From NCBI RefSeq assembly GCF_002161065.1, contig NZ_NFLV01000009.1, positions 1 to 64,000 of the forward strand: a stretch of DNA of 64,000 bases, written 5' to 3'. Below the pieces are notes generated by a model that was given only the letters and a program-made list of their open reading frames with translations, did no database searches and was not told the origin of the DNA. Shown in pieces: positions 13,529 through 53,525 of this stretch (within the stretch, counting starts at the first letter, position 1; each line of letters starts with the position of its first letter). The DNA is from Eubacterium sp. An11. Lineage in GTDB: Bacteria > Bacillota > Clostridia > Lachnospirales > Lachnospiraceae. A program made the position numbers and the translations under genes.

Positions 13529-14584
13529 CTAATTGACGCTGATTCCCAATTTTAATAATTCTTCCTGGAACAACTCTCCCGCCGATCGAAATCCGAACAA
13601 CTTTCTGGGATAGTTGTTTATCCAGTCTTCTACGTACTGAATTTCAGTACGGGGCATAAAGTCAAAATTAATGCCTTTGGGGATGTGCCGACGGATAAGG
13701 CGATTGTTGTTTTCATTACTTCCCCGTTCACAACTGCGGTATGGGTGACAGAAAAAGAGTTTCGTCCGCTTTTTTCGACTTCTTTTTGACCGTTCTATTC
13801 CTTTTACATCGCTAAACTCAGTCCCATTATCTACTGTGATTGTCTTAAATATTTTACGAAAAAGCGTTGTCCCCAACTTTCTTTCCAGCCCATCCAATGC
13901 TCTGACAACAGATGCGGCAGATTTATCTTTCATTTTTCGTATGATTTCTTCCCTTGTCTTCCGTTCAGTTAGGACTAATAGTATATTTTTTGATTCTTTC
14001 TGTGCCCCGACTACGGTATCCATTTCCCAGTTTCCAAACTCTTCTCTCTTATCTATATGTTTTGGCCGCAGGCTGATACTGGTTCCCGCCTGTGCCCGTT
14101 TCTGTACCTTGACACGCTTTTTCTTCTGCTTCTTTTTTCTAATCGGAAGGTCTTCCATCGTAAGATTTAAAAATATCCCCTTCCTGATATAAGAATATAA
14201 TGTATTCACACATATTGTCGTCTGGAATCCTTGGTCTGTATCTCTTTTTGCTGTGACAAGTGCTGCCTCCGGGGAATATTTATCTTCTATAATCTTCTTT
14301 TCCAAATAAGATGCATATTTCAAATCATTGCCTATTTTTAATTGTCTCCCCCGCTTCTGCAAATTTTCCTTATATTTTTCGTTCGCCACATATGGGTCAT
14401 ACACTTCTGATTCCGTCCAATCAGAGTTTCTTTTGGTAAATTTCCCCCGTTTTATCTCCCGATATATCGTTGTCTTCGCAACATGTAACAATTTTGCAAT
14501 GTCTGGCACTTTCATTTTCCCTTTAAGACATATATCTAATTGCAAGCGATCTTCATATTTTAATTGTCGCCATTTTTCTCCCAT
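13529..14584 (-). CDS. IS30-family DDE transposase
   Basis: The 351-residue protein has an N-terminal helix-turn-helix (about 8-48, with TTIYREIKRG) and an RNase H-like DDE core. The putative catalytic residues are D189 (WEMDTVVG), D252 (TVDNGTEF) and E291 (ERGSNENNNRL), followed by the IS30-typical WINNYPRK. The ATG has AAAGG upstream. It lies next to the left boundary, transcribed outward toward rpoB, and I could not find terminal inverted repeats that would make it a separate insertion sequence. As no other recombinase exists here, it may excise and insert the whole element, as the IS30-like transposase of ICE6013 does in Staphylococcus (recalled precedent). Residues 312-317 (RTEIQY) are encoded by a perfect copy of the 17-bp palindrome that punctuates the element. 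The alternative is a hitchhiking IS that has lost recognisable ends. Confidence 0.9.
   Translation of the reverse strand: MGEKWRQLKYEDRLQLDICLKGKMKVPDIAKLLHVAKTTIYREIKRGKFTKRNSDWTESEVYDPYVANEKYKENLQKRGRQLKIGNDLKYASYLEKKIIEDKYSPEAALVTAKRDTDQGFQTTICVNTLYSYIRKGIFLNLTMEDLPIRKKKQKKKRVKVQKRAQAGTSISLRPKHIDKREEFGNWEMDTVVGAQKESKNILLVLTERKTREEIIRKMKDKSAASVVRALDGLERKLGTTLFRKIFKTITVDNGTEFSDVKGIERSKRSRKKRTKLFFCHPYRSCERGSNENNNRLIRRHIPKGINFDFMPRTEIQYVEDWINNYPRKLFGFRSAGELFQEELLKLGISVN
13634..13650. repeat. dispersed palindrome, copy 1 (inside transposase gene)
   Basis: Perfect GTACTGAATTTCAGTAC. It is in frame and encodes part of RTEIQY close after the DDE glutamate, at a place where the family alignment appears to keep its normal length. 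Confidence 0.9.
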
Positions 14585-14609
14585 TATATTTTCCTTTATC
14601 TATAATAAA

Positions 14610-14639
14610 TTGGCCTGCTACATATACATAACAGGCCAA
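14610..14639 (-). terminator. hairpin between antitoxin and transposase genes
   Basis: Perfect 8-bp arms TTGGCCTG (14610-14617) and CAGGCCAA (14632-14639). On the minus strand it is followed by TTTATTATAG, so it could be a weak terminator of the toxin-antitoxin operon, just upstream of the transposase ribosome binding site. Confidence 0.5.
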
Positions 14640-14693
14640 CAAAATTTTCAATATATAACATATGGTAATATAATCATTAAGGTTCATTCCTTC

Positions 14694-14885
14694 TTATTCC
14701 CAATTAATAGCATCATGAGGAATCGTCCCATTCTTTTTTCTGTCTTCCCGTCCTTCCAAGAGGGCTTCCAGTTCTCCAGGTTCTGGCTCTACCTCTGGAA
14801 CGAATTTCACAATCACACGGTATAATACTTCAATATCATTTTCCGGCACTAATTCTATCAGATTTTTTAACATTTCTCTACTCAT
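14694..14885 (-). CDS. putative antitoxin of a RelE-type pair
   Basis: This 63-residue acidic protein starts at the ATG at 14885, which has AGGAGG seven bases upstream. A longer in-frame start exists but lies inside the toxin gene. The C-terminus (IPHDAINWE) resembles that of small Firmicute antitoxins. It starts 10 bp after the stop position of the toxin gene read in the same direction, so the order is toxin first, antitoxin second. The role is inferred from size and pairing. No DNA-binding motif is evident. Confidence 0.6.
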   Translation of the reverse strand: MSREMLKNLIELVPENDIEVLYRVIVKFVPEVEPEPGELEALLEGREDRKKNGTIPHDAINWE

Positions 14886-14895
14886 GTTTTGCCTC

Positions 14896-15135
14896 CTATA
14901 ATCTTTTATATGCCTGCCCTCTTGGGATGATATTATCAATATAAATTTTATCATCTTCCATTGTAAACAGGACTCTCAAATCACCAACACGGAGTCTATA
15001 ACCTTCTCCCGCCCCTTGCAACTTTTTAATATCTCCAAATGGTATTTTTTCAATTGCTTCTTTCAGCCTTTTTTTCGTCGGTTTATCTGCTGAATTAATG
15101 TATTTCACTGATTTCTTACTATATTCTATTTGCAA
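14896..15135 (-). CDS. RelE/ParE-family toxin
   Basis: The 80-residue protein has the RelE pattern: basic N-terminal helices, then YRLRVGDLRVLFTMEDD, then IIPRGQAYKR. RelE toxins cleave mRNA in the ribosomal A site. ParE relatives act on gyrase, and I cannot separate the two from sequence alone. I place the start at the TTG at 15135 because GGGAGGGG lies 8 bases upstream; the ATG at 15168 would add 11 residues and lacks such a site. Such pairs commonly stabilise mobile elements after integration. Confidence 0.75.
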   Translation of the reverse strand: MQIEYSKKSVKYINSADKPTKKRLKEAIEKIPFGDIKKLQGAGEGYRLRVGDLRVLFTMEDDKIYIDNIIPRGQAYKRL

Positions 15136-15177
15136 TTTCTTTTCCCCTCCCTTCTTTTTACTACACATATTTTATCA

Positions 15178-15861: not shown

Positions 15862-15878
15862 TACTTATACCGGAAGTC

Positions 15879-15895
15879 GTACTGAATTTCAGTAC
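15879..15895. repeat. dispersed palindrome, copy 2 (contains virD4 stop)
   Basis: Perfect GTACTGAATTTCAGTAC. The virD4 stop codon TGA (15891-15889) is part of the palindrome; the last codon is TAC. Confidence 0.95.
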
Positions 15896-18120
15896 GTTCC
15901 TTTTCCGGCTACAAGTGCCCGGCGGTACTGCCGCATCTTTACGGCGTCATGTAATGCAAAGTATGTCTTGATATCTTGATTACTAAGCCCGTCTTCCATA
16001 CCGCCAATAATCTCCTCGATTTCATCCGGTGGCAATAAGTCTGCATATCGCAGCAAACAATCGAAGATACTGCCGGACAAATCCCATGGGCCGTCTTCTT
16101 CCGGTTCCTGTTCGTAATCTTCCTCATCAAGGAGGGGATAGGCGTCCGGCGGCGGTTCCATGGCGGTCGTGTCCTTCCTCCCGATATCCTTTATCATCTC
16201 CTGCAGGTCTTCCTCCGTCGGGCGTGGGTCTTCGTTCCAGTTGGTGTATAAAAACTGCTGCATATCCATTTCAAAAGTCTTGATAGAATCATCGTTCTTC
16301 TCTGCTTCTTTGTAGAAATCAAATTCCTCTTTGGTGAGGATTCGGAGTTTTTCTTCCCCTTCCAGCGTTTTGTACTGTCCCGTCTTTTCGTTATAAACTA
16401 CGCGGACGGGGTTTTTATATCCCTGTTCTCCGGCTATTTCCTTTGCCTTTTTAAATTCGTCTGTGGCAAATGGCCATCTTTTCTGATCGTAAATCGGACG
16501 CCATCCCTCCACAAAAAGGATACAGTCATCCTTTGGCATCCGTGCCACTTGCCCTGGCGTCATAAGTTTGATGCCGCCCTTTTGCATCTGCAGATTGGAA
16601 TTATTATTAGAGCTAAACATATATCCCAAATGCTCCGACCGGCTGTCAATGGTCATATCTTCCAGCATATCCGATATCCATTGATGGGTGGTATGGGCGG
16701 CTGGTCCGGAACCCAGATAAACCATGACGGCACAGTTCCCGCAGAAAATCTCCCATTTATCATTAGGAAATAACGTTTTAATTTGCGCTACGTCTTGCAG
16801 GATCGGCGCCATGGACATATTCCGGCTCCGGATTTCTCCCAGGAGCATTTCGGAATCTGCCGGTTTAGGGCCTGCATAAAATTCATCCGCCCATAATCGG
16901 ACATGGATTGGCAATTTTCCGCCAGGACAGTCATTATCCGCGATATCCCGGAGTACCCGGAAGAGTTGGGTGTAAAACATGTTAATAAACAGGTTATAAG
17001 ATGTATCCCCGGAGCGCATGACCAAAAACAGCGCTGTCTTTCTCTCCGGGTTGCCGTCCACTCCCAGCCCTAAGGACGGGATATCAATGTCATCATCTTC
17101 AAAGATACGGCGGATTTCCGGCAATTCAAACAGTTTGAGCTGTGCATTTACCATAATGATAATAGAGCGGACAGTCTCTGTCGCTCCCTCCTTCAGTTTC
17201 CGGTAATCCCGCACCGGCGGATAGTCTTCCCCATATACCATCGCCAGGCTATCCATCTCCTGCTGCAGGGCGGTTGTCCCATCCTCATCAATCTTTTTCG
17301 TTTCCATGTTGACCAGTTTCAGGATGTTATTCATTGTCCCTATCCGGCCCTGTTTTTGAGAAATAAGCCATTCATATTCAAATAATGCTTGTAGATACAG
17401 GGCAACTCCATCATCCCAAAAGGGGTCTCCTTTCATAGCGTCCGGCGGCTTTACCGACTGTTGAATATTAGTAATGATGCCGATTAGGTCACTATAATTT
17501 TTTATATAGCGGAATGGGTTATACCGGTGGGATTCCAGCGGATTTTTAAAGTTCAAGGCTTTTACCGTCACACCAATACTTTTCAGATAACCGCCGTATT
17601 CTTTTAGCAGGTCGCCTTTGATGTCGAGGATGATATTACTCATATTAGCTTGAAATAAATTTGGTATCAGCTCCGAAGTAGTCTTTCCGGAACCAGAGCC
17701 ACCAATGATGAGCATGTTCATGTTGGATAACGCATCAAACCCAATCTTTACATTTTGGCTGACATAGGTATTTCTGTCCGGGTTTTTCTTATCACAAAGT
17801 ATTTTTGACGCCTTTTTTAAATCCGCCCAATCAGCAACGCCATGCTCCGCCTCCGGGTGGAAGTTTCGGTGATAGGTGATGTAGTAAGAGACGACCAAAA
17901 CCCACACAATCAGCCCCACCCCCATCACCGCCGGGGTATACTGGTTAAACCATGGGTATAGAGGATGCAGGATAACATACAATAACTTGTCCTGATAATT
18001 CTGCACAGTCACTCCATCCATGACAAATAAACCAGAGATAAAATAAGACAAGACTAAAAAAACAACCATGAGGGCAAACAAAGCTCCCCATGGCGTCTTC
18101 TTTTTCTGTGTTTCAGGCAT
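15889..18120 (-). CDS. virD4: VirD4/TraG-type conjugation coupling protein
   Basis: The 743-residue ATPase links the relaxase-DNA complex to the type IV secretion channel at the membrane. Two N-terminal membrane segments (about 12-35 and 64-85) are followed by the Walker A motif GGSGSGKT (about 140-147) and a Walker B region in LWADEFYAG. The C-terminal tail is acidic. The ATG has AGGAGGG upstream. It is the last gene of the long minus-strand conjugation unit and follows the PcfB-like gene by 14 bp, the arrangement seen in Gram-positive elements where PcfB and PcfC work together. Its stop codon lies inside the dispersed palindrome. Confidence 0.93.
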   Translation of the reverse strand: MPETQKKKTPWGALFALMVVFLVLSYFISGLFVMDGVTVQNYQDKLLYVILHPLYPWFNQYTPAVMGVGLIVWVLVVSYYITYHRNFHPEAEHGVADWADLKKASKILCDKKNPDRNTYVSQNVKIGFDALSNMNMLIIGGSGSGKTTSELIPNLFQANMSNIILDIKGDLLKEYGGYLKSIGVTVKALNFKNPLESHRYNPFRYIKNYSDLIGIITNIQQSVKPPDAMKGDPFWDDGVALYLQALFEYEWLISQKQGRIGTMNNILKLVNMETKKIDEDGTTALQQEMDSLAMVYGEDYPPVRDYRKLKEGATETVRSIIIMVNAQLKLFELPEIRRIFEDDDIDIPSLGLGVDGNPERKTALFLVMRSGDTSYNLFINMFYTQLFRVLRDIADNDCPGGKLPIHVRLWADEFYAGPKPADSEMLLGEIRSRNMSMAPILQDVAQIKTLFPNDKWEIFCGNCAVMVYLGSGPAAHTTHQWISDMLEDMTIDSRSEHLGYMFSSNNNSNLQMQKGGIKLMTPGQVARMPKDDCILFVEGWRPIYDQKRWPFATDEFKKAKEIAGEQGYKNPVRVVYNEKTGQYKTLEGEEKLRILTKEEFDFYKEAEKNDDSIKTFEMDMQQFLYTNWNEDPRPTEEDLQEMIKDIGRKDTTAMEPPPDAYPLLDEEDYEQEPEEDGPWDLSGSIFDCLLRYADLLPPDEIEEIIGGMEDGLSNQDIKTYFALHDAVKMRQYRRALVAGKGTY

Positions 18121-18134: not shown

Positions 18135-19544
18135 TTACCGCCTCAATACTGGCGGCGGTATGATATGCTCTGGCCGTTTTGCCGGATCCGGTTTATATCT
18201 GACTGTGATATCCGATGTGCCCTTGGTCTTTTCCCTGGCAGATTCCGGCCCTTTTTCCGACTGCCGGCTGTCTTTTCTGACCGGGGAAGCTTTTTGTTGC
18301 TGACGGATATCCATTCTCTCCATATCCATTCCCTGTCGGTTGACAGCCTTCCCTCTCGCCAGACTTTGCGACTGGTCAAGATGCAGCGCGCCATCTCCGA
18401 CTGTGTCAAAATACTGTCTGGCAAAATCACTCCCCGGCAGGTCTCCCCAGGCTTTTTTTCCTGTCGCCGCACCGATGACCTGCGGCGGCTCATCCTTCTT
18501 GATAAATGCCAGATAGGACTCTCCATCCTGTCTGACAAACACCTGCGATAATGGAAGGATGAGCAGGCGTTCCTTATCTTTGCCGCCCCACGTTCCTGGT
18601 ACACGGCAAGCAAACTGTCCCTTTTCCCAAAAATCCTGCAGATGGCGGGAGGAATTTTCTACCAATGTCTCATGGTCGATACTAAGTGGCAGATACGCCG
18701 GGTCATTGGCATAGCTCTCAAAAGATGCTGCCGTCTCATTTTTCAATATCTGATTTTCCTGTACCGCCTTTTCTACCTCGCCTTTTTCTTTTCCTTCATA
18801 TTTCTGGTTGGCTTCCTGATATTCTTTATCCGCTCCGTTGATATAGGACTGCTCTGTCATCTGACCGGTTTGCGCATATTCTGTCATACTGATCGTATTA
18901 TAGTCCTCGATAACTGTCCCGTCTTTTGCTAAGTCATCTTTCATCAGCTTGTACCAATGTTCTACCTGCGGCAGATCGCTATTGGCAACAATGACCTGTA
19001 CCTGTCCATCTCCGACCCGCAGGTCTGGTAGTGTGGCAAAATTGATCCCCATGGCTTTGAAATCATCCTGCCATTCTCCTTTCATTGCTTCCAGTGGTAA
19101 AGACAGGATGCTTGTCCGGCCATTTGTCAGGTTTCGCAAGTCCCGGATGCCTTTTTCACCACCCTTCATCTCATTTAAGATATGCCTTTGGTACCATGCG
19201 CCAAACTTATCTTTGTCCGATTGGTAGACGGCCACCTGCAGCATCCCGTCATCTTTATTGAGATCCGGTAAGACCATATGCCGGACACCTAAGTCCTGCA
19301 GCTCCTTTGTGATCTGCTCCGTATCCATCGTCGGGATGTTCATGATATCGTATTTTCCTTCCGTCAATCTGATAAACTCCGAAAAATCTTTCACTGTCCC
19401 CGACCGGAGTTTCTTCTCTGTAGCCTGACGGGCAAAATACTGCAATAGCATGATACCTCCCATTGTCGTCAGTTTAAAAAATGGGTCCATCCACCGGGCT
19501 GCCTGCTGGATACTCAGAAATACATCGCGGGTTTCCCGTTCCAT
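18135..19544 (-). CDS. PcfB-like (DUF3801) conjugation accessory protein
   Basis: This is a roughly 469-residue protein whose N-terminal region resembles DUF3801/PcfB, a factor that delivers the relaxosome to the coupling protein. Two copies of a similar unit can be seen: IMNIPTMD with VLPDLNKDDGMLQVAV, and ILSLPLEAM with TLPDLRVGDGQVQVIV. A charged low-complexity C-terminus follows. I prefer the ATG at 19544, six bases after GGAGGG, over one six codons upstream. It is directly upstream of virD4. Family assignment is moderately sure. Confidence 0.7.
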   Translation of the reverse strand: MERETRDVFLSIQQAARWMDPFFKLTTMGGIMLLQYFARQATEKKLRSGTVKDFSEFIRLTEGKYDIMNIPTMDTEQITKELQDLGVRHMVLPDLNKDDGMLQVAVYQSDKDKFGAWYQRHILNEMKGGEKGIRDLRNLTNGRTSILSLPLEAMKGEWQDDFKAMGINFATLPDLRVGDGQVQVIVANSDLPQVEHWYKLMKDDLAKDGTVIEDYNTISMTEYAQTGQMTEQSYINGADKEYQEANQKYEGKEKGEVEKAVQENQILKNETAASFESYANDPAYLPLSIDHETLVENSSRHLQDFWEKGQFACRVPGTWGGKDKERLLILPLSQVFVRQDGESYLAFIKKDEPPQVIGAATGKKAWGDLPGSDFARQYFDTVGDGALHLDQSQSLARGKAVNRQGMDMERMDIRQQQKASPVRKDSRQSEKGPESAREKTKGTSDITVRYKPDPAKRPEHIIPPPVLRR

Positions 19545-19570
19545 TCTGTTCCCTCCTTCCAAAAACCTTT

Positions 19571-19587: not shown

Positions 19588-19668
19588 ATCTTCTGTCGTA
19601 GGTTTTTATGAAACTCCATAGTCTATCATTATGCTGGATTCCCATATCACCTAAGCAATATTACCCGC

Positions 19669-19685
19669 GTACTGAAATTCAATAC
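19669..19685. repeat. dispersed palindrome, copy 4 (one mismatch, GC-extended)
   Basis: GTACTGAAATTCAATAC differs from the consensus by one base. Flanking CCCGC and GCGGG extend the dyad to 27 bp (19664-19690), giving a hairpin of useful stability 10 bp after the DUF5688 stop codon; it may act as a terminator. Confidence 0.85.
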
Positions 19686-19699
19686 GCGGGCAGTATCCC

Positions 19700-21074: not shown

Positions 21075-21503
21075 CTATAATTTTGGCCCGTACTGAATTT
21101 CAGTACGTTTCTCTTTCTCTTGTGTCTGTTCCGGTTTCCTTTCCTTCTCCATAACGTCAAGCTCTTTCTGTAAAGCGGAATCATATTCCTGGAGCTGGCC
21201 GTTCTTTTCCTTTATCTTTTCCAGATAGCTGAGGATCTGTTTTGCCTGCTCCATGAACTCCGTGTCGGTTTTCCTTTTTACAATACTACCGGACGCCAGT
21301 GCATCCGGATAAACACCAAACACATACCCCGCCAGTGCCAATGTCATCTCATCGGGCGGGATACGTCCGGATTCCATGGCTGTGAGCTGCTTTGGCGTCA
21401 GCAGGAGCAGCCCGGCCATTGCGTCCACATCATACTCTTTTTCTTCCCGGAGCTGACGGATACAGTCCCCCGCGTTCCGTTCTTCTTTTCCATTTACAGG
21501 CAT
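21075..21503 (-). CDS. putative HTH-domain protein
   Basis: The 142-residue protein has an XRE-like N-terminal segment (about 14-65: IRQLREEKEYDVDAMAGLL, LLTPKQLTAMESGRI) and then a coiled, charged C-terminal half. The ATG follows GGAG and overlaps the end of the ArdC-like gene by 10 bp. The C-terminal residues KRTEIQYGPKL are encoded by a perfect copy of the dispersed palindrome, read in the open TEIQY frame. DNA binding is inferred from weak similarity only. Confidence 0.6.
   Translation of the reverse strand: MPVNGKEERNAGDCIRQLREEKEYDVDAMAGLLLLTPKQLTAMESGRIPPDEMTLALAGYVFGVYPDALASGSIVKRKTDTEFMEQAKQILSYLEKIKEKNGQLQEYDSALQKELDVMEKERKPEQTQEKEKRTEIQYGPKL
21090..21106. repeat. dispersed palindrome, copy 5 (end of coding region)
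   Basis: Perfect GTACTGAATTTCAGTAC inside the last codons of the HTH-like gene, 15 bp before its stop codon. Confidence 0.95.
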
Positions 21504-23600: not shown

Positions 23601-23617
23601 AAATCTTTTCCGCCGAC

Positions 23618-23634
23618 GTACTGAAATTCAGTAC
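23618..23634. repeat. dispersed palindrome, copy 6
   Basis: Perfect GTACTGAAATTCAGTAC in the 38-bp gap between the relaxase stop and the next start codon. Confidence 0.95.
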
Positions 23635-23638
23635 ACTG

Positions 23639-27559: not shown

Positions 27560-27607
27560 CGGATTCTCACTTCCTCTCTGATTTTTTTATTGCAGATGTT
27601 CTCCTGC

Positions 27608-27624
27608 GTACTGAATTTCAGTAC
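27608..27624. repeat. dispersed palindrome, copy 7
   Basis: Perfect GTACTGAATTTCAGTAC; first unit of the 77-bp array. Confidence 0.95.
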
Positions 27625-27684
27625 GTTCTTTTCGTTGGCTTCTGAAAAATCCTCTCTATAATTTCAGCACAAACATTTTCCCGT

Positions 27685-27701
27685 ATACTGAATTTCAGTA
27701 C
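27685..27701. repeat. dispersed palindrome, copy 8
   Basis: ATACTGAATTTCAGTAC; the outermost base differs, the 15-bp core is intact. Second unit of the array. Confidence 0.92.
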
Positions 27702-27762
27702 ATTTTTTTCGCTGGACTTTGAAAAAATCTTCTCAAAATTTTCAAGTCTGATATTTTCCCGC

Positions 27763-27779
27763 GTACTGAATTTCAGTAC
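27763..27779. repeat. dispersed palindrome, copy 9
   Basis: Perfect copy; third unit of the array. Confidence 0.95.
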
Positions 27780-27838
27780 ATTTTCTCACTTGTCTTCGGA
27801 AAAACTTTTCAAAATTTTCCACACGGATGTCTTTCCGT

Positions 27839-27855
27839 GTACTGAATTTCAGTAC
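27839..27855. repeat. dispersed palindrome, copy 10
   Basis: Perfect copy; fourth unit of the array, 15 bp downstream of the CHAP gene stop codon. Confidence 0.95.
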
Positions 27856-44755: not shown

Positions 44756-44777
44756 AACGATTCTCCTTTCTTCCCTC

Positions 44778-44794
44778 GTACTGAAATTCAGTAC
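44778..44794. repeat. dispersed palindrome, copy 12
   Basis: Perfect copy in the 5' leader of the Ig-like gene, 23 bp before its start codon. Confidence 0.95.
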
Positions 44795-44810
44795 GCTACA
44801 TATTTTTTCT

Positions 44811-44827
44811 GTACTGAAATTCAGTAC
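44811..44827. repeat. dispersed palindrome, copy 13
   Basis: Perfect copy 33 bp upstream of copy 12, also between promoter and gene. Confidence 0.95.
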
Positions 44828-44891
44828 ATACCACTTATTTTTACTCCCAGCAGGATTACCATTTTCCTCTGGCCATTCTTTTTCTGATTAT

Positions 44892-44945: not shown

Positions 44946-45119
44946 GTCATCAGGCTCAAAATAGAGTAATCTATTGTTCTTTTTCCTGAAAAGTGTTTTT
45001 TCTGTGTCTTGCAGGTGTATTTTTTTGCATTATCATTTTATGGATGTTCTGAGTGATATTTTCCGGGTCTCTTCCGGGTATTTTGTACTGAATTTCAGTA
45101 CGCGATTTTCCAATCCCAC
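44946..45119. other. intergenic region between Ig-like promoter A and membrane protein gene
   Basis: Apart from palindrome copy 14 and the partial promoter-box repeat I see no gene or strong hairpin in it. Confidence 0.4.
45085..45101. repeat. dispersed palindrome, copy 14
   Basis: Perfect copy 19 bp after the stop codon of the four-pass membrane protein gene. A partial third copy of the promoter upstream box lies beside it (45111-45132). Confidence 0.95.
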
Positions 45120-45671
45120 TTAAATCCACTTTTTTAGCCTATTCTCTAAATTTTGATATGTATGCTTCCTCATATCTGAAAGAACCCTGGCCATAAAATC
45201 TATTGCACTAAGATATTCTTTTTCCAATTTTTTCACCTTGATCCAATCTCTTATCATAACAATACACCCTATCCATGTAGTTATAGGAAAAAGAACTCTC
45301 AAAAACAAAATAAAGAAAAAGATTGAAAATATAATAATCACAGGCCATTTAGATATCCGCTTAAATATTGTTTTCACACCAAAAAAGAAACCTACACTTA
45401 ATATCATTACCACAACACAACTTACTTTTTCTGTTGTTTGACTTACAGCAGGCACTCTGGAAATAATAATTAAAATTACAGCTAAAATTATTCCCGCAAT
45501 CGTGAGATTACTCGTTGACTCAAGAAAACTCACATATTTCTCTCCTTTATGTACCGTATCATTATGCAGGCAGTCTACACATATCACTCCTTTATCAGTT
45601 CCAATTTTATAATCATTTGTTATATCTCTACTACAGTCATAACAATATACCGTTTTTTTATTTCCATCCAT
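45120..45671 (-). CDS. small membrane protein with N-terminal double CxxC motif
   Basis: The preferred ATG at 45671 has AAAGGGG upstream; a longer frame to 45791 would run through the palindrome. The 183-residue product starts MDGNKKTVYCYDCSRDI, with a second pair in VICVDCLHND, so a small zinc-ribbon-like head is likely. Four hydrophobic segments follow (about 55-75, 85-105, 112-140) before a basic C-terminus. Function unknown. It is co-oriented with the next membrane protein gene and both lie downstream of promoter B. Confidence 0.6.
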   Translation of the reverse strand: MDGNKKTVYCYDCSRDITNDYKIGTDKGVICVDCLHNDTVHKGEKYVSFLESTSNLTIAGIILAVILIIISRVPAVSQTTEKVSCVVVMILSVGFFFGVKTIFKRISKWPVIIIFSIFFFILFLRVLFPITTWIGCIVMIRDWIKVKKLEKEYLSAIDFMARVLSDMRKHTYQNLENRLKKWI

Positions 45672-45694
45672 CGTATACTTCCCCTTTGGAAACT

Positions 45695-46138
45695 CTACTT
45701 TGTACTGAATTTCAGTACATTTCCCACCTGACAGCAGATTGCATGTATTCCTTCCAGGATGAGAAAACAGCAGTATACGCTGAAAATCCATACAACTATT
45801 GTATAAATCAAAGATATCTTTCCACTGGCTGCTGTAACAATGGTTCCTTCAGCAACTGCCACAATGAACATGAGTAAGAAGCTGAGTTTTATCCCTGTTT
45901 TTCTATTTCTCACAATAAAGATTGGTGCCAGAAATAAACACACAATCCCTGCTGGCAGGATAATACTGAAAAAATAAATGGACGCCATATCCAAAGAGAT
46001 TTGTTCAACTTTGATAATCTCCTGTAATCTCCCCTGTGAAGACAAGAGCCAGTTCTGGCAAAGAATATATAGATAAAATGCCAGCACACTTCCCGACCCA
46101 AAACCTCCAAGAATCGTTCCTGCTTTTTTCATTGTCAT
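45695..46138 (-). CDS. four-pass membrane protein
   Basis: The ATG at 46138 (MTMKKAGTILGG) follows a purine-rich GGAGGGAGGGG. The ATG at 46162 lies directly beside the palindrome and would read through that ribosome binding site. The 147-residue product has four hydrophobic segments. Its C-terminus NVLKFSTK is encoded by a copy of the palindrome read in its third open frame. Function unknown; the first gene after promoter B. Confidence 0.6.
   Translation of the reverse strand: MTMKKAGTILGGFGSGSVLAFYLYILCQNWLLSSQGRLQEIIKVEQISLDMASIYFFSIILPAGIVCLFLAPIFIVRNRKTGIKLSFLLMFIVAVAEGTIVTAASGKISLIYTIVVWIFSVYCCFLILEGIHAICCQVGNVLKFSTK
45712..45728. repeat. dispersed palindrome, copy 15
   Basis: Perfect copy inside the last codons of the four-pass membrane protein gene (VLKFST frame) and 41 bp upstream of the next start codon. 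Confidence 0.95.
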
Positions 46139-46162
46139 GCTCTTTCTTTCCCCTCCCTCCAT

Positions 46163-46179
46163 GTACTGAAATTCAGTAC
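46163..46179. repeat. dispersed palindrome, copy 16
   Basis: Perfect copy between promoter B and the four-pass membrane protein gene. Confidence 0.95.
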
Positions 46180-46245
46180 GCGCTGTTTGATTTTCTTCTG
46201 TATGGAATCGATTCCCCCTATCCGTCCCATACTATTCCTGATTAT

Positions 46246-46300: not shown

Positions 46301-46311
46301 GTGTTCCCTGC

Positions 46312-46328
46312 GTACTGAATTTCAGTAC
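46312..46328. repeat. dispersed palindrome, copy 17
   Basis: Perfect copy upstream of promoter B, in the divergent region shared with the plus-strand XRE gene. Confidence 0.95.
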
Positions 46329-46346
46329 ATCCTTTTCCTCTCTTTC

Positions 46347-46453: not shown

Positions 46454-46690
46454 ATGCAGAAAATCCGGCCAGATATGGATATCGGCCATAACATCAGCCT
46501 TCTCCGTCAGCGTACCGGCTTGACACAGGATCAGGCCGTCGCCCGTCTCCAGCTTATGGGGATCAAGATATCAAAGAGCAGTTATGCAAAAATTGAAACG
46601 AACAGAATGAACATCAAGGTAAGCGAACTTGTTGCACTCTGTAAGATTTTCCATGCGGATATCTCTGAATTTTTTCAGGGGTTGCTGTGA
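46454..46690 (+). CDS. XRE-family HTH regulator
   Basis: This 78-residue protein starts MQKIRPDMDIGHNIS; GGAAAGGG lies eight bases upstream, so I prefer this ATG to one at 46397. The HTH is clear (LLRQRTGLTQDQAVARLQLM, then SKSSYAKIETNRMNIKVSEL). It is divergent from the membrane protein operon and convergent with the BlaI-like gene, overlapping its end by 16 bp. It is a candidate regulator of the nearby duplicated promoters. Confidence 0.8.
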   Translation: MQKIRPDMDIGHNISLLRQRTGLTQDQAVARLQLMGIKISKSSYAKIETNRMNIKVSELVALCKIFHADISEFFQGLL

Positions 46691-47091
46691 GTGATGGATT
46701 GCAGCTCTTCCTTCCTTTTCTCAACGGCGTCGGATAATTCCTCAAGGGTTTCCTCATCCGCCCCCTCGTTTATGATGGATTCCAATAGCTCTTTTAATAA
46801 CAGGCTCTCTTTTCGACTCTCCTGCTTCACCTGGTACAAGCTCCATTGTTCCCTTGTCATTGTCGGCTCAAAGGAACGCGCATAATTTTTCGTAGTCTTT
46901 TTAAACCCGGCAACACGGATCATCTCTTTTTTTAACAATGCATTGATCAGGATGTGGATATAACTGTCTTTCCATCTCCGGTCTACTGACAACCTTATAA
47001 TCTCGCTGGAGGTCAGTGGTTCTCCAGTATCCCACAGCAGGTTCATGACTTCCCATTCGCTGTCTGTAAGCTTTTTCCTCTTACTTTCCAT
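46675..47091 (-). CDS. BlaI/MecI/CopY-family repressor
   Basis: The 138-residue protein has the winged-helix pattern of BlaI proteins: LTDSEWEVMNLLWDTGEPLT at the N-terminus, HILINALLKKEMI as recognition region, then a C-terminal dimerisation helix. In other systems such repressors are cleaved by a membrane BlaR-type sensor. No sensor gene is present here, so its control is unknown. An inverted repeat lies 58 bp upstream. The 3' end overlaps the converging XRE gene. Confidence 0.8.
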   Translation of the reverse strand: MESKRKKLTDSEWEVMNLLWDTGEPLTSSEIIRLSVDRRWKDSYIHILINALLKKEMIRVAGFKKTTKNYARSFEPTMTREQWSLYQVKQESRKESLLLKELLESIINEGADEETLEELSDAVEKRKEELQSITHSNP

Positions 47092-47342
47092 GATCTTCTC
47101 CTTCCATCATTCATGATACTTTTCTATCCATGTCATTATGTTCCTATATGGATATATGTATAAATATCCATACACACCATTATAGCCTGGTATTTTCTAA
47201 AGCACAATATCCAAACAGGAATATCATAGACGTATCGTTTCAATATCCCTTATTACCATCTTATTGATATCCTATGTATCAATATTCGTACATACCGAAT
47301 TTCTGTACATACTCATATAATAAAACTGTATGAGGTGCAGGC
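47092..47342. promoter_or_regulatory. divergent control region between BlaI-like and XRE genes
   Basis: TGGATAT-N8-ATATCCA (47149-47170) is a 7-bp-arm dyad upstream of the BlaI-like gene. Several TATCC/GGATA half-sites recur between 47110 and 47280. A degenerate copy of the dispersed palindrome (ATACCGAATTTCTGTAC) lies at 47292-47308. No gene seen. Confidence 0.5.
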
Positions 47343-47546
47343 ATGATAAGTTACGAACCACTCTTTGAGACTATGAAGAAAAAGCATATCAGTTCTTATG
47401 AGCTTGAAAAACGGGGCTTTTCCCGTTCTACTTATTATGCCATGAAGTACGGAAAGAGCGTCACCGTCAATACCATCAACCAGCTCTGCGCCATCCTCGA
47501 TTGTGAGGTATCTGATATCATGAAATATGTAAGAGATACCGATTAA
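47343..47546 (+). CDS. small XRE-type HTH protein
   Basis: This 67-residue protein is a minimal Cro-like fold (KKKHISSYELEKRGFSRSTY then VNTINQLCAILDCEVSDIMK). The ATG follows GAGGTG. Proteins of this form are common in Firmicute elements as small repressors. It converges with the P-loop kinase gene; copy 18 of the palindrome lies between them. Confidence 0.8.
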   Translation: MISYEPLFETMKKKHISSYELEKRGFSRSTYYAMKYGKSVTVNTINQLCAILDCEVSDIMKYVRDTD

Positions 47547-47557
47547 CCTTTCATGGC

Positions 47558-47574
47558 GTACTGAAATTCAGTAC
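47558..47574. repeat. dispersed palindrome, copy 18 (contains kinase stop)
   Basis: Perfect copy between convergent genes. The kinase gene stop codon TGA (47570-47568) is part of it. Confidence 0.95.
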
Positions 47575-48065
47575 GTTTCTTTTCTATACCTGTAAAGTTG
47601 TTTCATGATATGTTTTTCTTCCATATCTCCATGTATTTTATAAATTTTTGCAAACCCTTCCGTTTCTGATGGCTCCGACAGCGTTTGATACATCATACAT
47701 ATCCCGATCATCGGGACATGGCGTTTTCGCCGCCGGTTATTTTTCAAGGCTGTCATAAGCGGAGTATCCAGATAGATTGCTGCCGCCCGGATCCCTGATG
47801 GCAGTTTATCCAGCAGCGCTTTCCGCCGGCGGCGGGTGATATTGGTGCAGTCGATGACAATATCATTTCCTGTAGATAGTGCCTCCTTCATCCGGTCATA
47901 AAGGATACGGCGCACTCTTTTCCTCCCCCGTAGGGTCAGTTCCCGTCCATACAGTTCTTTCCGGATGTTGTCTGTCCCTAGATAAACGGCATGGGACAGA
48001 TATTTTTTTGTAAAGGTTGTCTTCCCGGCTCCGGGAACACCAACCATGATATATATTGTCTGCAT
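47568..48065 (-). CDS. P-loop kinase of the AAA_33/polynucleotide-kinase type
   Basis: The 165-residue protein has a Walker A motif GVPGAGKTT (about 9-17), then LGTDNIRKELYG and VIDCTNITRRRRK, the pattern of small zeta-toxin or polynucleotide-kinase-like ATPases. Possible roles are RNA end repair or toxin-like phosphorylation. Nothing nearby identifies the substrate. The C-terminus (RKETY) ends inside the palindrome. Confidence 0.75.
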   Translation of the reverse strand: MQTIYIMVGVPGAGKTTFTKKYLSHAVYLGTDNIRKELYGRELTLRGRKRVRRILYDRMKEALSTGNDIVIDCTNITRRRRKALLDKLPSGIRAAAIYLDTPLMTALKNNRRRKRHVPMIGICMMYQTLSEPSETEGFAKIYKIHGDMEEKHIMKQLYRYRKETY

Positions 48066-48079
48066 GATACGCTCCTTAT

Positions 48080-48096
48080 GTACTGAATTTCAGTAC
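48080..48096. repeat. dispersed palindrome, copy 19 (contains stop)
   Basis: Perfect copy; the stop codon TGA (48092-48090) of the small membrane protein gene is part of it. It also lies 15 bp upstream of the kinase start codon. Confidence 0.95.
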
Positions 48097-48434
48097 GCAT
48101 TGTCTTCCTGCCGGTCTATCCTGACCATTTCCGAAGAAAGAATCGTGTTAAGAGGAATCTGATAGTTTTTCTCACTTACAGTAAAATAGAGCGTTTTATT
48201 CCGGGTGCGGAAAAAACGGTGATATCCGATCACATTTCCATGATAATTGGGATAATCCGAATACAGGAGATGTTCAATGACCATCCCATTCATAAGTGTG
48301 AGCCTGAAACGGTAAGTATATTTTCCATCTTTCTTTTTTGTACTTATGAATGTCATACTGTTCCCTTTCAGGTATAAATAGAGTAAAATAATTACTATCA
48401 ATATTACTACTATAACTGATAAGATTGTTTTCAT
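48090..48434 (-). CDS. single-pass membrane protein
   Basis: The ATG at 48434 is ten bases after AAAGG; a GTG two codons upstream is possible. The 114-residue product has one N-terminal membrane segment (about 3-24) and a soluble beta-rich part with several Tyr residues. It ends DNAY with its stop inside the palindrome. Function unknown. Confidence 0.6.
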   Translation of the reverse strand: MKTILSVIVVILIVIILLYLYLKGNSMTFISTKKKDGKYTYRFRLTLMNGMVIEHLLYSDYPNYHGNVIGYHRFFRTRNKTLYFTVSEKNYQIPLNTILSSEMVRIDRQEDNAY

Positions 48435-48440
48435 AATCAC

Positions 48441-48617
48441 TCATCCTTTCCGGCAGGGTGAACGCCGGACGACATTTTCTCTGCCTTTTCTGGTATCAGC
48501 AGGCTTTTTTGTTGACCTGTATTCATCCTGTGGGTCTGTGATTATGATTTCATCTTTCTGTAATTTATTCAGGATGTCCCGTATTTTTAACTGATAAGAC
48601 ATGGCTACTCTATTCAT
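48441..48617 (-). CDS. 58-residue small protein
   Basis: The ATG at 48617 follows GGAAAGGA at seven bases. The product starts MNRVAMSYQLKIRDILNKLQ and is basic at its end. Its stop codon lies just before the membrane protein gene, consistent with a two-gene unit. Family not recognised. Confidence 0.5.
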   Translation of the reverse strand: MNRVAMSYQLKIRDILNKLQKDEIIITDPQDEYRSTKKPADTRKGRENVVRRSPCRKG

Positions 48618-48631
48618 AATCCATCCTTTCC

Positions 48632-48648
48632 GTACTGAATTTCAGTAC
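48632..48648. repeat. dispersed palindrome, copy 20
   Basis: Perfect copy immediately upstream of the ribosome binding site of the 58-residue gene, in a divergent intergenic region. Confidence 0.95.
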
Positions 48649-48710
48649 AAATGGTTTGCTATCTTCTCCCCTGTCTGCTATACTTATCTCAAAAGTCAGG
48701 AGGTCTGCGT

Positions 48711-48883: not shown

Positions 48884-48917
48884 GGGGCGCTCCCGTGCCG
48901 GGGAACGTCTCTTTTTT
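48884..48917 (+). terminator. terminator after the 53-residue gene
   Basis: GGGGCGCTCCCG and CGGGGAACGTCTC pair imperfectly (GU pairs and a bulge) and are followed by TTTTTT on the plus strand. Confidence 0.55.
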
Positions 48918-48934
48918 GTACTGAAATTCAGTAC
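48918..48934. repeat. dispersed palindrome, copy 21
   Basis: Perfect copy between the terminator and the AraC gene stop codon, between convergent genes. Confidence 0.95.
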
Positions 48935-48935
48935 A

Positions 48936-49793
48936 TTACCCTGTCAGGTAGTCGGACAATTCCATCTGCCGGTTCTCTTCTTTCATCTTCCGGGCTTTTT
49001 TCTCCCGGTACTGCCGGCGGTACTGAAGCGGCGTCGTCCCCATATATTTCTTAAAAGCCGGCACAAAATGAGAGTTTGAGTAGAAGCCGATATTTTCCGC
49101 GATCTCCTGGACAGGTAGATCTGTCTGCTCCAGCAGGGCTTTCCCTTCCTGCACGCGGCGCTGGTGATAATACTCGATCGGTGTCATACCATACGCCGCA
49201 CAAAATGCACGGTTTAACTCTTCCCGTTCCAGCCCACATCGTTCCATGAGTTCCGTGAGAAGGATCTTTTCCCGGAAATGCGCATTGATATAGTCCCGGA
49301 TGTCCCGAACAGCATCGTTCTGCTTTTCCGGGCAAAAACAGGCGGGTGTCCGTCCATACCGGGACAATTCCATCAAAAAGATCTGGATATATTTCTGACA
49401 CACCATTTCATACCCTTGCACTTTTTTCTGTATTTCCCGCCGGATGGCGGATAACGCCTGTTTTGCTGTCCCCGGCGGCACGGTATAGACCGTCTCATCG
49501 ATCCCGGAGACATGAGCCGCAACAGTCAGAAAGAGCAGCTCTGTTCCCGGCTGTACCAAAAGCGTTGTTTCCGTCCCTGTGCCAACAGCAAAATACTGGT
49601 TTTTTCCCACAGACTGGCTGCGTCCGTCCCTGTATCGCTTTCCCTGTCCAATGAGCAGGATAACAATCCCCGGCCCGTCAGCTGCATATAAGATTGCCCT
49701 GTCTTTTTTTAGGGGCCCATGGTAGCTTATTTTATCAACCACTATGGCAGCCTGTCCTGCACACAGGGGTTCCCGGATGATCATTTCGTCCAT
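48936..49793 (-). CDS. AraC-family transcriptional regulator
   Basis: The ATG at 49793 follows GAGGAGG at six bases. The 285-residue protein has an N-terminal cupin-like sensing region (about 1-150) and two C-terminal HTH motifs (LTELMERCGLEREELNRAFC and VQEIAENIGFYSNSHFVPAF) typical of AraC regulators. The effector is unknown. It may control the surface-protein or transfer genes. It lies beside the inverted-repeat array that follows repA. Confidence 0.85.
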   Translation of the reverse strand: MDEMIIREPLCAGQAAIVVDKISYHGPLKKDRAILYAADGPGIVILLIGQGKRYRDGRSQSVGKNQYFAVGTGTETTLLVQPGTELLFLTVAAHVSGIDETVYTVPPGTAKQALSAIRREIQKKVQGYEMVCQKYIQIFLMELSRYGRTPACFCPEKQNDAVRDIRDYINAHFREKILLTELMERCGLEREELNRAFCAAYGMTPIEYYHQRRVQEGKALLEQTDLPVQEIAENIGFYSNSHFVPAFKKYMGTTPLQYRRQYREKKARKMKEENRQMELSDYLTG

Positions 49794-49904
49794 AGCATCC
49801 TCCTCTGTTTGTTTTTCCACCCATCCATCGACTGCATCCTGTATTACCACGGATGGATGGATAGATTATATATATAAATATATTTATTTCTTTTGTATCT
49901 ATTT

Positions 49905-51494: not shown

Positions 51495-51512
51495 AACATT
51501 TCCTCCTCCTTC

Positions 51513-51529
51513 GTACTGGGATTCAGTAC
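51513..51529. repeat. dispersed palindrome, copy 22 (two mismatches, contains stop)
   Basis: GTACTGGGATTCAGTAC. The outer arms are kept and two centre bases differ. The sortase stop codon TGA (51525-51523) is part of it. It is also just upstream of the ssb ribosome binding site. Confidence 0.8.
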
Positions 51530-52278
51530 ATTTTGATATTTTTTATCTTGCTGTGTACGACATACCGGGAATCTGCACTCCGCCCTGTAGAACAGGTAGA
51601 CAGGGTGATGACCCGGTCCCCCGCAGAAGGGATAGCAGTCCCTACATCGTAATAATTTTCTTCGATAGTCATGTTAAGCCAGTCCTGCCAGGCTTCCGGC
51701 GTCTGAAAATCCGTGATATAGGTCTCACTGGCATCCTTACAGTCATAGGTGCTGTAGATCTTTGCATGTATCGTCCGTCCCGGTTCATAGATGTAGACAT
51801 CCGGATGTTCCCTCCCAAAATCTTCGTCCTCGTAATCATGCAGGCTGCCGAACATGGACCGGCTGGCCATGTTGTGGCCATAGATGACGATGTGCTGGTC
51901 AGAAAAACTGGCGCCGGGCTGTATAAAGATCGAGCCGGGATAACTGTAGTTTCCCTCATGATCCTTGTGTAAATATTCATTCCATGTTGAACATTGCAGG
52001 ACAGGATAATCAATCTTTGTTCCAGGCACTGTGATCCACGCTACGATATCCGGGTTTTCTTCCTGCAGCTTTTCCCATTTGATATCCGGCATCGTCACGC
52101 CATCATCCAGAGTGTTCTCTTCTGCTGTCCCTTTGACTGCTTCCCGGAGCTTATGTACTTCCCAGTCACTTTTGATGAAAGGCAATGCATCACGCAATGC
52201 TAACGTCCCAAACGCCATGGCTGCTGCGAACAATCCCATGAGCATCAGATAAAACAGAAACCGTTTTAATATGTTCAT
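51523..52278 (-). CDS. srtB: class B sortase
   Basis: The 251-residue transpeptidase has an N-terminal membrane anchor (about 7-29) and the sortase triad H135 (IYGHNM), C229 (TLSTC) and R238 (SRYVV). The order and spacing fit class B. It should anchor the PPQTGD protein and the KTG-ending adhesin of this element to the cell wall. The gene lies 14 kb from its putative substrates, between replication and maintenance genes, as in Tn1549-like elements. Its ATG overlaps the preceding gene stop by 4 bp. Confidence 0.9.
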   Translation of the reverse strand: MNILKRFLFYLMLMGLFAAAMAFGTLALRDALPFIKSDWEVHKLREAVKGTAEENTLDDGVTMPDIKWEKLQEENPDIVAWITVPGTKIDYPVLQCSTWNEYLHKDHEGNYSYPGSIFIQPGASFSDQHIVIYGHNMASRSMFGSLHDYEDEDFGREHPDVYIYEPGRTIHAKIYSTYDCKDASETYITDFQTPEAWQDWLNMTIEENYYDVGTAIPSAGDRVITLSTCSTGRSADSRYVVHSKIKNIKMY

Positions 52279-52961
52279 TTTTCATCTATCATCCTTTCCA
52301 TTCCATATATCCGGACAGAATTAAGATACAGTAAAAGGGTCTCTGTAGCAGGAAAACTTTCTTCTATCTCTTCGCCTATCAGGTTGTAGAAAAGGGCATG
52401 GATTCCGTCCTCATCTTTCCGGAATCCGTTCTCCTCTGCTTCCGCCCACTCTTCTATGATATCTCCAAGGGACGTTATGATATCGTAAAGCCCATAGGTA
52501 AATGGCCCGTGTGTCTGGACCGTCTGGGATATATAGCGTTTCCATTCCATGTCAAGGACCAATAAGATCTCATAGTGATAAGTAAATCCTACATTCATGC
52601 AGGTATCCAGCGCATCGTCTGTGAGTGTAGGCTGCAGGGAGGAATGGCCGGCAACATCCCGTAGGATATAATGATCTTCACAATCATAGGTCTCTCCGGT
52701 TTTTCTGTCGTACATACTATGTACATGTGGATACGTCACATTTTTTGCGAGCATCTGGTCAAAAAGTTTGGTACCTCCCTGCTCCTGGTCTTTAACGAAA
52801 AAAGATTCTTTGCGGCCATCCAGATAGATCCGTCCCACCCGGTCACCGTATGAATGTCCATACCACGGTTTTTCTGACGTAAGTTTTTCTACCGGCTTCA
52901 ATGGAATATCTCCAGGTAGTTCCTGGCTTAATTCAAAATGATAGGTATATTTGTTTTCCAT
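52275..52961 (-). CDS. unknown conserved-looking cytoplasmic protein
   Basis: The ATG at 52961 follows AAGGAG; the frame to 53036 has no such site. The 228-residue product (MENKYTYHFELSQELPGDIP) has no membrane segment or recognisable domain. It is rich in aromatic and acidic residues (GHSYGDRVGRIYLDGRKESF). It is translationally coupled to the sortase. Confidence 0.55.
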   Translation of the reverse strand: MENKYTYHFELSQELPGDIPLKPVEKLTSEKPWYGHSYGDRVGRIYLDGRKESFFVKDQEQGGTKLFDQMLAKNVTYPHVHSMYDRKTGETYDCEDHYILRDVAGHSSLQPTLTDDALDTCMNVGFTYHYEILLVLDMEWKRYISQTVQTHGPFTYGLYDIITSLGDIIEEWAEAEENGFRKDEDGIHALFYNLIGEEIEESFPATETLLLYLNSVRIYGMERMIDEK

Positions 52962-53109
52962 GTATTTCTCCTTTTTAGTGACGGGAACATCCTGGAAAGG
53001 GACGTCCCGCCTGATATGAAAGTATACGTTGTACACAGTTCCCTGTGTACAGGCCCGCCTGTGCTTTTGCAGACCACGGCCCAGGATATCCTGTCCGCAG
53101 GCGGGCGTT

Positions 53110-53126
53110 GTACTGAAATTCAGTAC
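53110..53126. repeat. dispersed palindrome, copy 23
   Basis: Perfect copy in the 266-bp gap between two small genes, adjoining GCCCGCCTG/CAGGCGGGC arms (53053-53106). Confidence 0.95.
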
Positions 53127-53227
53127 GCTATTGAAAGATACTGTTCTTTTGTCTCATACAAGGGCTTCTCCGAACGCTGGAACCATTATTCCACAGGAAG
53201 ATACCCATTGTTTTGCTGTATCTTGCA

Positions 53228-53488
53228 TCACAACAACAGGTACGCGCTCCTTCTCCACCCTTTTTCAACTCTTTTCTTTCTCTTTGCAAACATACCGGAA
53301 AACCCATCTTCATAGGAAAGGTACAGGTTCCCATCTTTATCCATCCAGACATCGTGGATCTCCCCATGTATCCAGCTATCCAGATAACCGTTATGTTTTT
53401 TCCGGAACTCATCTGCCATTCCATGCATCAGGGCATAACACTGTTTATATTCCTCAATGGTCTCTACACCTTTGATGATGATATGCAT
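53228..53488 (-). CDS. 86-residue unknown protein
   Basis: The ATG follows AAGGAGAAG. The product (MHIIIKGVETIEEYKQCYAL; then GEIHDVWMDKDGNLYLSYED) looks like a small globular protein with a basic end. Another overlapping frame is open, but this one has the ribosome binding site. Family not recognised. Confidence 0.5.
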   Translation of the reverse strand: MHIIIKGVETIEEYKQCYALMHGMADEFRKKHNGYLDSWIHGEIHDVWMDKDGNLYLSYEDGFSGMFAKRKKRVEKGWRRSAYLLL

Positions 53489-53508
53489 CTTTTCTTCTCC
53501 TTTTTGGC

Positions 53509-53525
53509 GTACTGAATTTCAGTAC
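53509..53525. repeat. dispersed palindrome, copy 24 (contains stop)
   Basis: Perfect copy; the TGA stop (53521-53519) of the small membrane protein gene is part of it. It lies 21 bp upstream of the next start codon. It is the rightmost copy in the element. Confidence 0.95.

Follow-up and report, generated by a model that had tools for sequence, protein, structure and literature searches.

A palindrome that is repeated throughout a mobile element, and is absent from the chromosome on either side of it, raises the question of which protein reads it and what that protein does there. We addressed this question in a 64,000-nucleotide stretch of the genome of Eubacterium sp. An11 (Lachnospiraceae; contig NZ_NFLV01000009.1, positions 1 to 64,000), hereafter called the window, which contains a probable conjugative element of 44 kb. 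On the sequence comparisons described below, we consider it very probable that the palindromes are operators of the ParB-family protein encoded by the element itself.

When the whole window was scanned for the 17-bp palindrome GTACTGAAWTTCAGTAC with up to three mismatches, 25 matches were obtained, of which 21 were perfect, two had one mismatch (19669 and 27685), one had two mismatches (51513), and one had three (47292). The mean number expected by chance, estimated from 100 dinucleotide shuffles of the window, was 0.14, and the largest count in any shuffle was one. An earlier interpretation of the same DNA, made from the letters alone (the sequence-only reading), had reported 21 perfect copies, the same three near copies, and the same degenerate copy, and had dismissed chance as their origin; our scan agrees on each of these points, and 20 of the 21 coordinates were exact, the remaining one (45712) having to be read as 45702. 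It had also seen no copy in the flanking chromosome, and none was detected there at up to three mismatches, all 25 sites lying within 13634–53525. The true unit is 19 bp long, Y-GTACTGAAWTTCAGTAC-R, where Y is a pyrimidine and R a purine: on the coding strand, a Y precedes and an R follows all 21 perfect copies, the surroundings of which are otherwise purine-rich. Across ten elements or fragments, the flanking Y was present at 103 of 105 sites and the flanking R at 102 of 105, and these two bases had played no part in site selection. The sites in the window, in 19-bp coordinates, are as follows.

13633–13651: operator, perfect; within the IS30-family transposase coding sequence
15878–15896: operator, perfect; overlaps the TraG stop codon
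19570–19588: operator, perfect; leader of gene 18135–19562
19668–19686: operator, one mismatch; leader of gene 18135–19562; flanks lengthen the dyad
21089–21107: operator, perfect; last codons of the XRE gene 21075–21503
23617–23635: operator, perfect; between the relaxase gene and gene 22623–23600
27607–27625: operator, perfect; array between the CHAP gene and gene 26732–27559
27684–27702: operator, one mismatch; same array
27762–27780: operator, perfect; same array
27838–27856: operator, perfect; same array
37165–37183: operator, perfect; leader of gene 36577–37149; flanks lengthen the dyad
44777–44795: operator, perfect; leader of gene 43679–44755
44810–44828: operator, perfect; leader of gene 43679–44755
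45084–45102: operator, perfect; after gene 45120–45791
45701–45719: operator, perfect; last codons of gene 45695–46162
46162–46180: operator, perfect; leader of gene 45695–46162
46311–46329: operator, perfect
47291–47309: degenerate operator-like dyad, three mismatches; between divergent XRE (47343–47546, plus strand) and BlaI-like (46675–47091, minus strand) genes
47557–47575: operator, perfect; between convergent genes; overlaps the stop of 47568–48065
48079–48097: operator, perfect; overlaps the stop of 48090–48440; precedes the Shine–Dalgarno (SD) sequence of 47568–48065
48631–48649: operator, perfect; leader of gene 48441–48617
48917–48935: operator, perfect; after the AraC-type gene 48936–49850
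51512–51530: operator, two mismatches; between the sortase and SSB genes; overlaps the sortase stop
53109–53127: operator, perfect
53508–53526: operator, perfect; overlaps the stop of 53519–53761

At 19668–19686 and 37165–37183, the flanks lengthen the dyads by 5–6 bp, giving longer hairpins. The four operators at 27607–27856 stand head to tail with a spacing of 76–78 bp, and a single operator occupies the equivalent junction in Candidatus Anaerobutyricum avicola, in Anaerobutyricum hallii, and on contig C9 of the host. The dyad at 47291–47309 is degenerate and longer, and is perhaps an operator of the 67-aa XRE protein (XRE67) or of the BlaI-like protein.

The sequence-only reading had named an equal density of the palindrome in the core genome of the host as an observation that would count against it, and had proposed a search of related elements and family genomes. 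No such density was seen: the whole host genome (3.91 Mb) contains 22 perfect copies, an exact copy was present in only 2 of 397 genomes of the family (the host's own included), and the motif is nearly confined to elements of this kind. The sole perfect host copy outside the window belongs to a second conjugative element, on contig C9, and is flanked there by homologues of the two transfer genes that enclose the array at 27608–27855. Across 84,980 species genomes, the exact pattern occurred in 58 stretches, and four contigs had at least two exact copies, those of Eubacteriaceae bacterium CHKCI004, A. avicola, A. hallii, and Eubacterium sp. SUG271, which are placed in one genus; the CHKCI004 element is apparently identical to that of the window. 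The partly covered genomes G400–G406 and G408 had one match each, with a second, two-mismatch match in G403, and viral contigs gave five single matches. Three matches in the Oscillospiraceae (G407; one GTACTG and two GTACCG) have extended arms, with T runs in two of the three, and look like terminators; they were not counted.

The element and the two genes on which our interpretation centres are located as follows.

13269–57483: probable extent of the element, with a 17-bp direct repeat at 13269–13285 and 57467–57483
54427–55779, minus strand: ParB-family protein of 450 aa, the proposed binder of the palindromes (Pfam ParB_N, 2e-7, above the cut-off)
55792–56511, minus strand: ParA ATPase, directly upstream of ParB (Pfam AAA_31, 5e-35)

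The gap between parA and parB is 12 bp. In the helix-turn-helix (HTH) of ParB, the recognition helix lies at about residues 172–184, within KRATVGEYQSIAKNL. A profile of seven ParBs matched solved structures of ParB, Noc, and Spo0J (best 3.7e-7), and no KorB chain was among the 10 profile matches in the Protein Data Bank at E ≤ 1. In the AlphaFold model, residues from about 130 to 240 had predicted local distance difference test (pLDDT) scores of 76–90, and the predicted helices at 160–168 and 172–184 had scores of about 82–90. The model, which is of low confidence overall, matches the DNA-binding domains of ParB and Noc; its fold matches were Spo0J, ParB, and Noc, with weaker matches to KorB (8qa8 and 8qa9; E 0.03–0.09).

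The sequence-only reading had tentatively linked the palindromes to this ParB, and the link is now supported by co-occurrence, by a prediction that held in two further genomes, and by matched changes in operator and helix. Besides the window, six elements carry a ParB of this kind (ParB450), namely those of SUG271 and of the genomes G057, G354, G308, G709, and G703, and palindromes of related form are present in all six. When 61 ORFs (open reading frames) of the window were compared with these six elements by tblastn, only ParA and ParB had homologues in every one, the ParA homologues being 49–71% identical; next came the sortase (four of six), then RepA_N, SSB, and gene 56536 (three each), and the remaining ORFs were matched in at most two. 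The compared contigs ranged from 3.8 to 60 kb, with only about 6.5 kb of element-like sequence in SUG271, and absences are weaker evidence here than presences. On the stretches examined in G308 and G703, no window-like VirB4, TraG, or relaxase was found.

A ParB search of the 397 family genomes gave seven, the host's own included, that passed E 1e-25; four of these ParBs had at least 56% identity over the matched part (host, G057, G354, and G308) and three had 28–39%. In the same draw of 397 genomes, the broadened pattern GTDCYGAAWTTCRGHAC matched 11, comprising all four genomes with a close ParB and 7 of the 393 others (Fisher P = 3e-7). Because this pattern was broadened after the sites had been seen in the four close-ParB genomes, the table is support and not an independent test. 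The seven other genomes were G319, G141, and five with a single match each (G110, G114, G165, G220, and G293), which look like chance; a reversed control pattern matched seven genomes. The three ParB homologues of 28–39% identity have a different helix, and the palindrome accompanied none of them, either in the stretches examined or, as GTDCYGAAWTTCRGHAC, genome-wide.

An order-wide ParB search of 392 genomes gave four matches: the host, G308, and two new ones, G709 (57%) and G703 (49%). For the two new genomes, several dispersed palindromes of the form GTNCYGNAWTNCRGNAC were foretold from ParB alone, before their sequences were examined, as an independent test, and G709 proved to have 16 (of the GTTCCGAAWTTCGGAAC type, over 39 kb) and G703 to have nine (of the GTGCCGRAWTYCGGCAC type), whereas two control stretches of another G709 contig had none. 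At the level of the class, 341 genomes were searched at E 1e-30 and only the host genome was returned; a ParB profile search of viral contigs gave no match, and a ParB search of plasmids gave one distant match. In MT838556.1, a 5.1-kb faecal record labelled bacteriophage, a 40% identical ParB is accompanied by two palindromes, and the flanking Y and R are retained at one of them. The record may represent a fragment of a conjugative element.

We also examined the commonest palindrome family of each stretch. This family was the motif in 8 of 10 stretches of ParB450 elements, whereas in 27 of 29 control stretches without ParB450 the commonest family had three copies or fewer; of the two exceptions, L117 carries the motif itself and L085 contains an unrelated local repeat. 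The versions in G354 and G308 escaped a scan for perfect arms (arms of 6, three copies), and both were recovered by scans with shorter arms and with mismatches.

The recognition helix and the half-site differ in parallel among the elements. The helix NMKRATVGEYQ (window and SUG271) is found with GTACTG half-sites, and NMKKSTVGEYQ (G057), NMKKTTVGEYQ (G354), and NMKKSTVGEYL (G308) are found with GTACCG half-sites, the sites of G354 being mostly GTACCGGA and those of G308 a mixture of GTACCG and GTTCCG. The helix QMSKSTIGEYR (G709) accompanies GTTCCG, and HMSRSTVSEYR (G703) accompanies GTGCCG. Between elements, the two arms of the dyad change together.

The copies had been described in the sequence-only reading as mostly intergenic, and this holds for 22 of the 25 site centres, although the gaps make up only 11.6% of the element (binomial P = 4.5e-18); it fails for 13634, 21090, and 45702, which are in coding sequence. 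The gene list used here is our own, drawn from ORFs with a few starts shifted inward. Five of the 25 sites overlap the upstream gene's stop codon. In a set of nine elements or fragments, an SD-like sequence and a start codon followed within 35 nt downstream on the coding strand at 49 of 99 sites (18.7 expected), and on the other side at 2 of 99. Nearly all genes share one direction, and so this proximity is by itself no proof of a regulatory role. Junctions keep their sites while the flanks diverge, as between the CHAP gene and gene 26732 in the window, C9, A. avicola, and A. hallii, and comparison of the window with G354 and G709 is suggestive of conserved site positions. A site directly before parA was found in four of seven elements (SUG271, G354, G709, and G703), which fits autoregulation, for which this is the usual place. 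At L088:9897 and L121:12709, in two genera, an operator is embedded in the gene for TraG, where residues 681 and 669 align; it falls in a variable linker before the WDLSGS motif, and the palindrome versions differ.

We propose that the palindromes would be parS-like loading sites, in which a ParB dimer would read the two half-sites by its HTH around a central A/T, 19 bp in total. With sites dispersed over the 44-kb element, mostly in gaps before genes, ParB would have many points at which to enter and from which to cover it, probably by acting, as other ParBs do, as a nucleotide-dependent clamp. Its role would most likely be twofold, like that of KorB on RK2: together with ParA, it would retain the element in the cell when this is excised or replicating, and in the resident element it would damp the expression of transfer and accessory genes. 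We lean towards a role in partition and regard a role in silencing as an evenly balanced question, the two roles overlapping. A wider view, which we advance only tentatively, is that the ParB clamp could form a self-silencing coat of a group of Lachnospiraceae elements, loaded before many cistrons and lifted for transfer, and that drifting ParB–operator pairs could define recognition groups on which silencing, partition, or exclusion between elements sharing one cell would depend.

The same operators and binder might instead constitute a pure partition centromere, with no gene regulation and with gaps that merely tolerate the sites. This is a serious alternative, although we incline against it. 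It would account for sites in coding tails and linkers (the C-terminus of an XRE protein, the IS30 transposase, the TraG linker of G319 and G354, and a giant helicase-like ORF in A. hallii) and for the constant company of ParA and ParB in the six other elements; moreover, with the genes of the window element nearly all in one direction, any gap is also a leader. For partition, however, one cluster near parAB should suffice, yet the sites span 40 kb, and the sites before parA in four of seven elements also speak against this view.

It is very unlikely that the binder is another regulator of the element, such as one of the XRE proteins (67, 97, or 142 aa), the BlaI-like protein, the AraC-type protein, or RepA_N. 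In favour of this reading, the degenerate dyad separates the divergent XRE67 and BlaI genes, around which 10 of the 21 perfect sites are clustered (44.7–49 kb), and A. hallii, in which ParB was unseen, has sites together with homologues of BlaI (39%) and of the 142-aa XRE protein (43%). However, BlaI, the 97-aa XRE protein, and the AraC-type protein were matched in none of the six other ParB450 elements (some contigs being partial), XRE67 and the 142-aa XRE protein had weak matches in one of six (29% and 33%), and RepA_N was matched in three; homologues of BlaI and XRE67 also occur in elements without the network, for example G409:C64. For most of the other elements with palindromes and ParB, no homologue could be detected of the HTH proteins that the sequence-only reading had offered as alternative binders. 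BlaI and XRE67, both of which are kept in A. avicola, G319, and another G409 element, were considered as binders and rejected, most palindrome elements having no homologue. When the divergent XRE67/BlaI region was searched for dyads at 7 of 8 pairs, none was found in the window or in A. avicola, and G319 had one unrelated dyad.

Even less probable is that the palindromes act as RNA hairpins before SD sites, read post-transcriptionally by an RNA-binding protein or a nuclease. The SD proximity of about half of the sites and the two dyads lengthened by their flanks would suit such hairpins, as would the G.U pairs that both one-mismatch copies of the window give in the transcript and, among the asymmetric pairs at the 99 sites on the coding strand, the larger number of G.U (27) than of A.C (18). 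This excess is not significant (binomial P = 0.23), however, and 12 other asymmetric pairs are of neither kind; the absence of a significant difference between G.U and A.C changes favours recognition of DNA over RNA. In addition, A.A or U.U stands at stem position 3/15 in 9 of 15 G308 sites, the genes on the two sides of at least one site are convergent, and, since the genes run mostly in one direction, a gap is nearly always a leader. Least probable of all is a small mobile palindromic repeat spread by transposition with no regulatory role: the tandem array of four and a G319 site in a TraG stretch that is inserted relative to the window are compatible with it, but flanks are shared for one base on each side only, the versions are element-specific and have changed symmetrically in step with ParB, and the sole other perfect host copy is in another conjugative element.

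Several observations weigh against the assignment of the palindromes, as parS-like loading sites for a clamp, to the element's own ParB. As a whole, the AlphaFold model is weak (mean pLDDT 57.7; predicted template modelling score 0.40). The GERR motif of other ParBs is GHxR here, as aligned to the GERR of 7bnk, with H83 and R85 invariant in all seven proteins. GERR is a motif of the nucleotide pocket that serves the binding of cytidine triphosphate (CTP), and the clamp action may differ in a protein with this replacement, although the variant motif in itself does not exclude nucleotide binding. The covariation of helix and half-site rests on few independent changes, G057 has one site only, on a 3.8-kb contig, and there is no site before parA in the window, G308, or G057.

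Palindromes also occur where this ParB was not detected. G141 has seven sites, and searches of its assembly detected no ParA (at E ≤ 1e-20) and no ParB (at E ≤ 1e-3); the sites are near the ends of two contigs (L117:190–3207 and L118:9321–10583), near XRE and paralogous membrane-protein genes. In A. hallii, there are 16 sites, and no ParB of the window kind was found. A ParA of the window family (about 60% identity, residues 1–94) occurs there twice, each time truncated by the end of a contig, and contig C141 begins inside RepA; its ParB is therefore probably in an unassembled duplicated stretch. The two parA copies, L133:1–285 and L134:4612–4896, are interrupted in the assembly at one and the same position. 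Sites without a window-type ParB were further found in A. avicola (four, with up to two mismatches), C9 (one), G409:C64 (one, imperfect), and G319 (one perfect site, plus three matches with two mismatches where the control gave one match). In A. avicola, the place of the window type is taken by a Spo0J-like ParB, and the sites in these four elements may be remnants left after exchange of the par module. At G409:C34:55071–55475, the match between a 383-aa frame and ParB is limited to the C-terminal part of the latter (residues 320–441, 47% identity), a tail domain shared with another protein.

Compared with known systems, the arrangement resembles ParABS in that a ParA Walker ATPase stands beside ParB and palindromic cis sites are matched to ParB by co-occurrence. 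The chromosomal ParB/Spo0J and Noc proteins, with their parS sites and Noc-binding sites, share ParB_N and the helical DNA-binding domain and give the best fold and profile matches; they differ in their operators, the lengths of which are unlike the odd-length operator of the window, in weak sequence similarity, and in having GERR and not GHxR. The A. avicola element has type IV secretion genes up to 96% alike to those of the window, but its ParB is Spo0J-like and few sites remain.

Work on dispersed ParB operators exists for proteobacterial plasmids. KorB of the IncP plasmid RK2 is a CTP clamp that binds OB sites (its operators) near and far from promoters and silences replication and transfer genes (PMC11790492). 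The likeness lies in a ParB-family protein with dispersed operators on a conjugative element (25 in 44 kb here, 16 in G709, and nine in G703). The differences are that ours is an integrative and conjugative element (ICE) of Lachnospiraceae with a 19-bp operator in place of the 16-bp OB (PMC11790492); in addition, about half of our sites stand directly before SD-like sequences, and KorB is absent from the sequence-profile matches of the window ParB and is only a weak fold match. The IncC plasmid R55 is described as having 14 inverted-repeat parS motifs in its backbone, one of them before parA, with two more in the island SGI1; ParB binding was demonstrated for the three parS tested, and the sites serve partition (PMC10954446). 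R55/SGI1 thus shares the many dispersed inverted-repeat ParB sites, including one before parA, but is a gammaproteobacterial plasmid system with 22-bp sites, and the available part of the report does not describe element-specific, co-varying site versions (PMC10954446).

In the titles and abstracts of the open-access literature, with subscription papers and preprints outside the scope, we found nothing on dispersed ParB operators in a Gram-positive ICE. A similar layout now appears in conjugative elements of gut bacteria, and the matched ParB–palindrome pairs point to an element-wide system of control or inheritance for which plasmids supply the best-known examples. At least four natural operator versions (GTACTG, GTACCG, GTTCCG, and GTGCCG), each with a natural ParB, offer ready pairs for studying the evolution of ParB specificity and a means of asking whether an entire ICE is silenced by a sliding clamp. 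In metagenomes, elements of this type can be detected and sorted into groups by means of the 19-bp motif.

The window element is inserted between rplL and rpoB (Pfam), parting rplJL from rpoBC by 44 kb. Its genes encode a CD1110-family VirB4, TraG, a relaxase, RepA_N, SSB, ArdC, ParA, and ParB; VirB4 is above the cut-off of NCBIfam conju_CD1110, TraG and the relaxase were matched by Pfam, and the MobP relaxase model was below its cut-off. We take the CD1110 family to be a marker of the Tn1549-like/CTn (conjugative transposon) group of ICEs. The element resembles these ICEs of Firmicutes in the first six of the genes listed above, and differs in carrying an IS30-family transposase at one end. 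A tyrosine or serine recombinase is the integrase expected in Tn1549-like ICEs; none was found among the window proteins scanned, which were part of the ORFs, and an IS30-family transposase was found there. This DDE transposase (13529–14584) adjoins TraG at one end of the element, a small protein with a similar HTH (57150–57422) lies at the other, and the G709 element has an equivalent layout (L125:276–1256 and L126:18325–18501). The transposase may serve as the integrase of the element, for which ICE6013 of Staphylococcus aureus is reportedly a precedent. The element also encodes a 2054-aa repeat surface protein with DUF11 domains (37254–43418) and a sortase (51523–52278).

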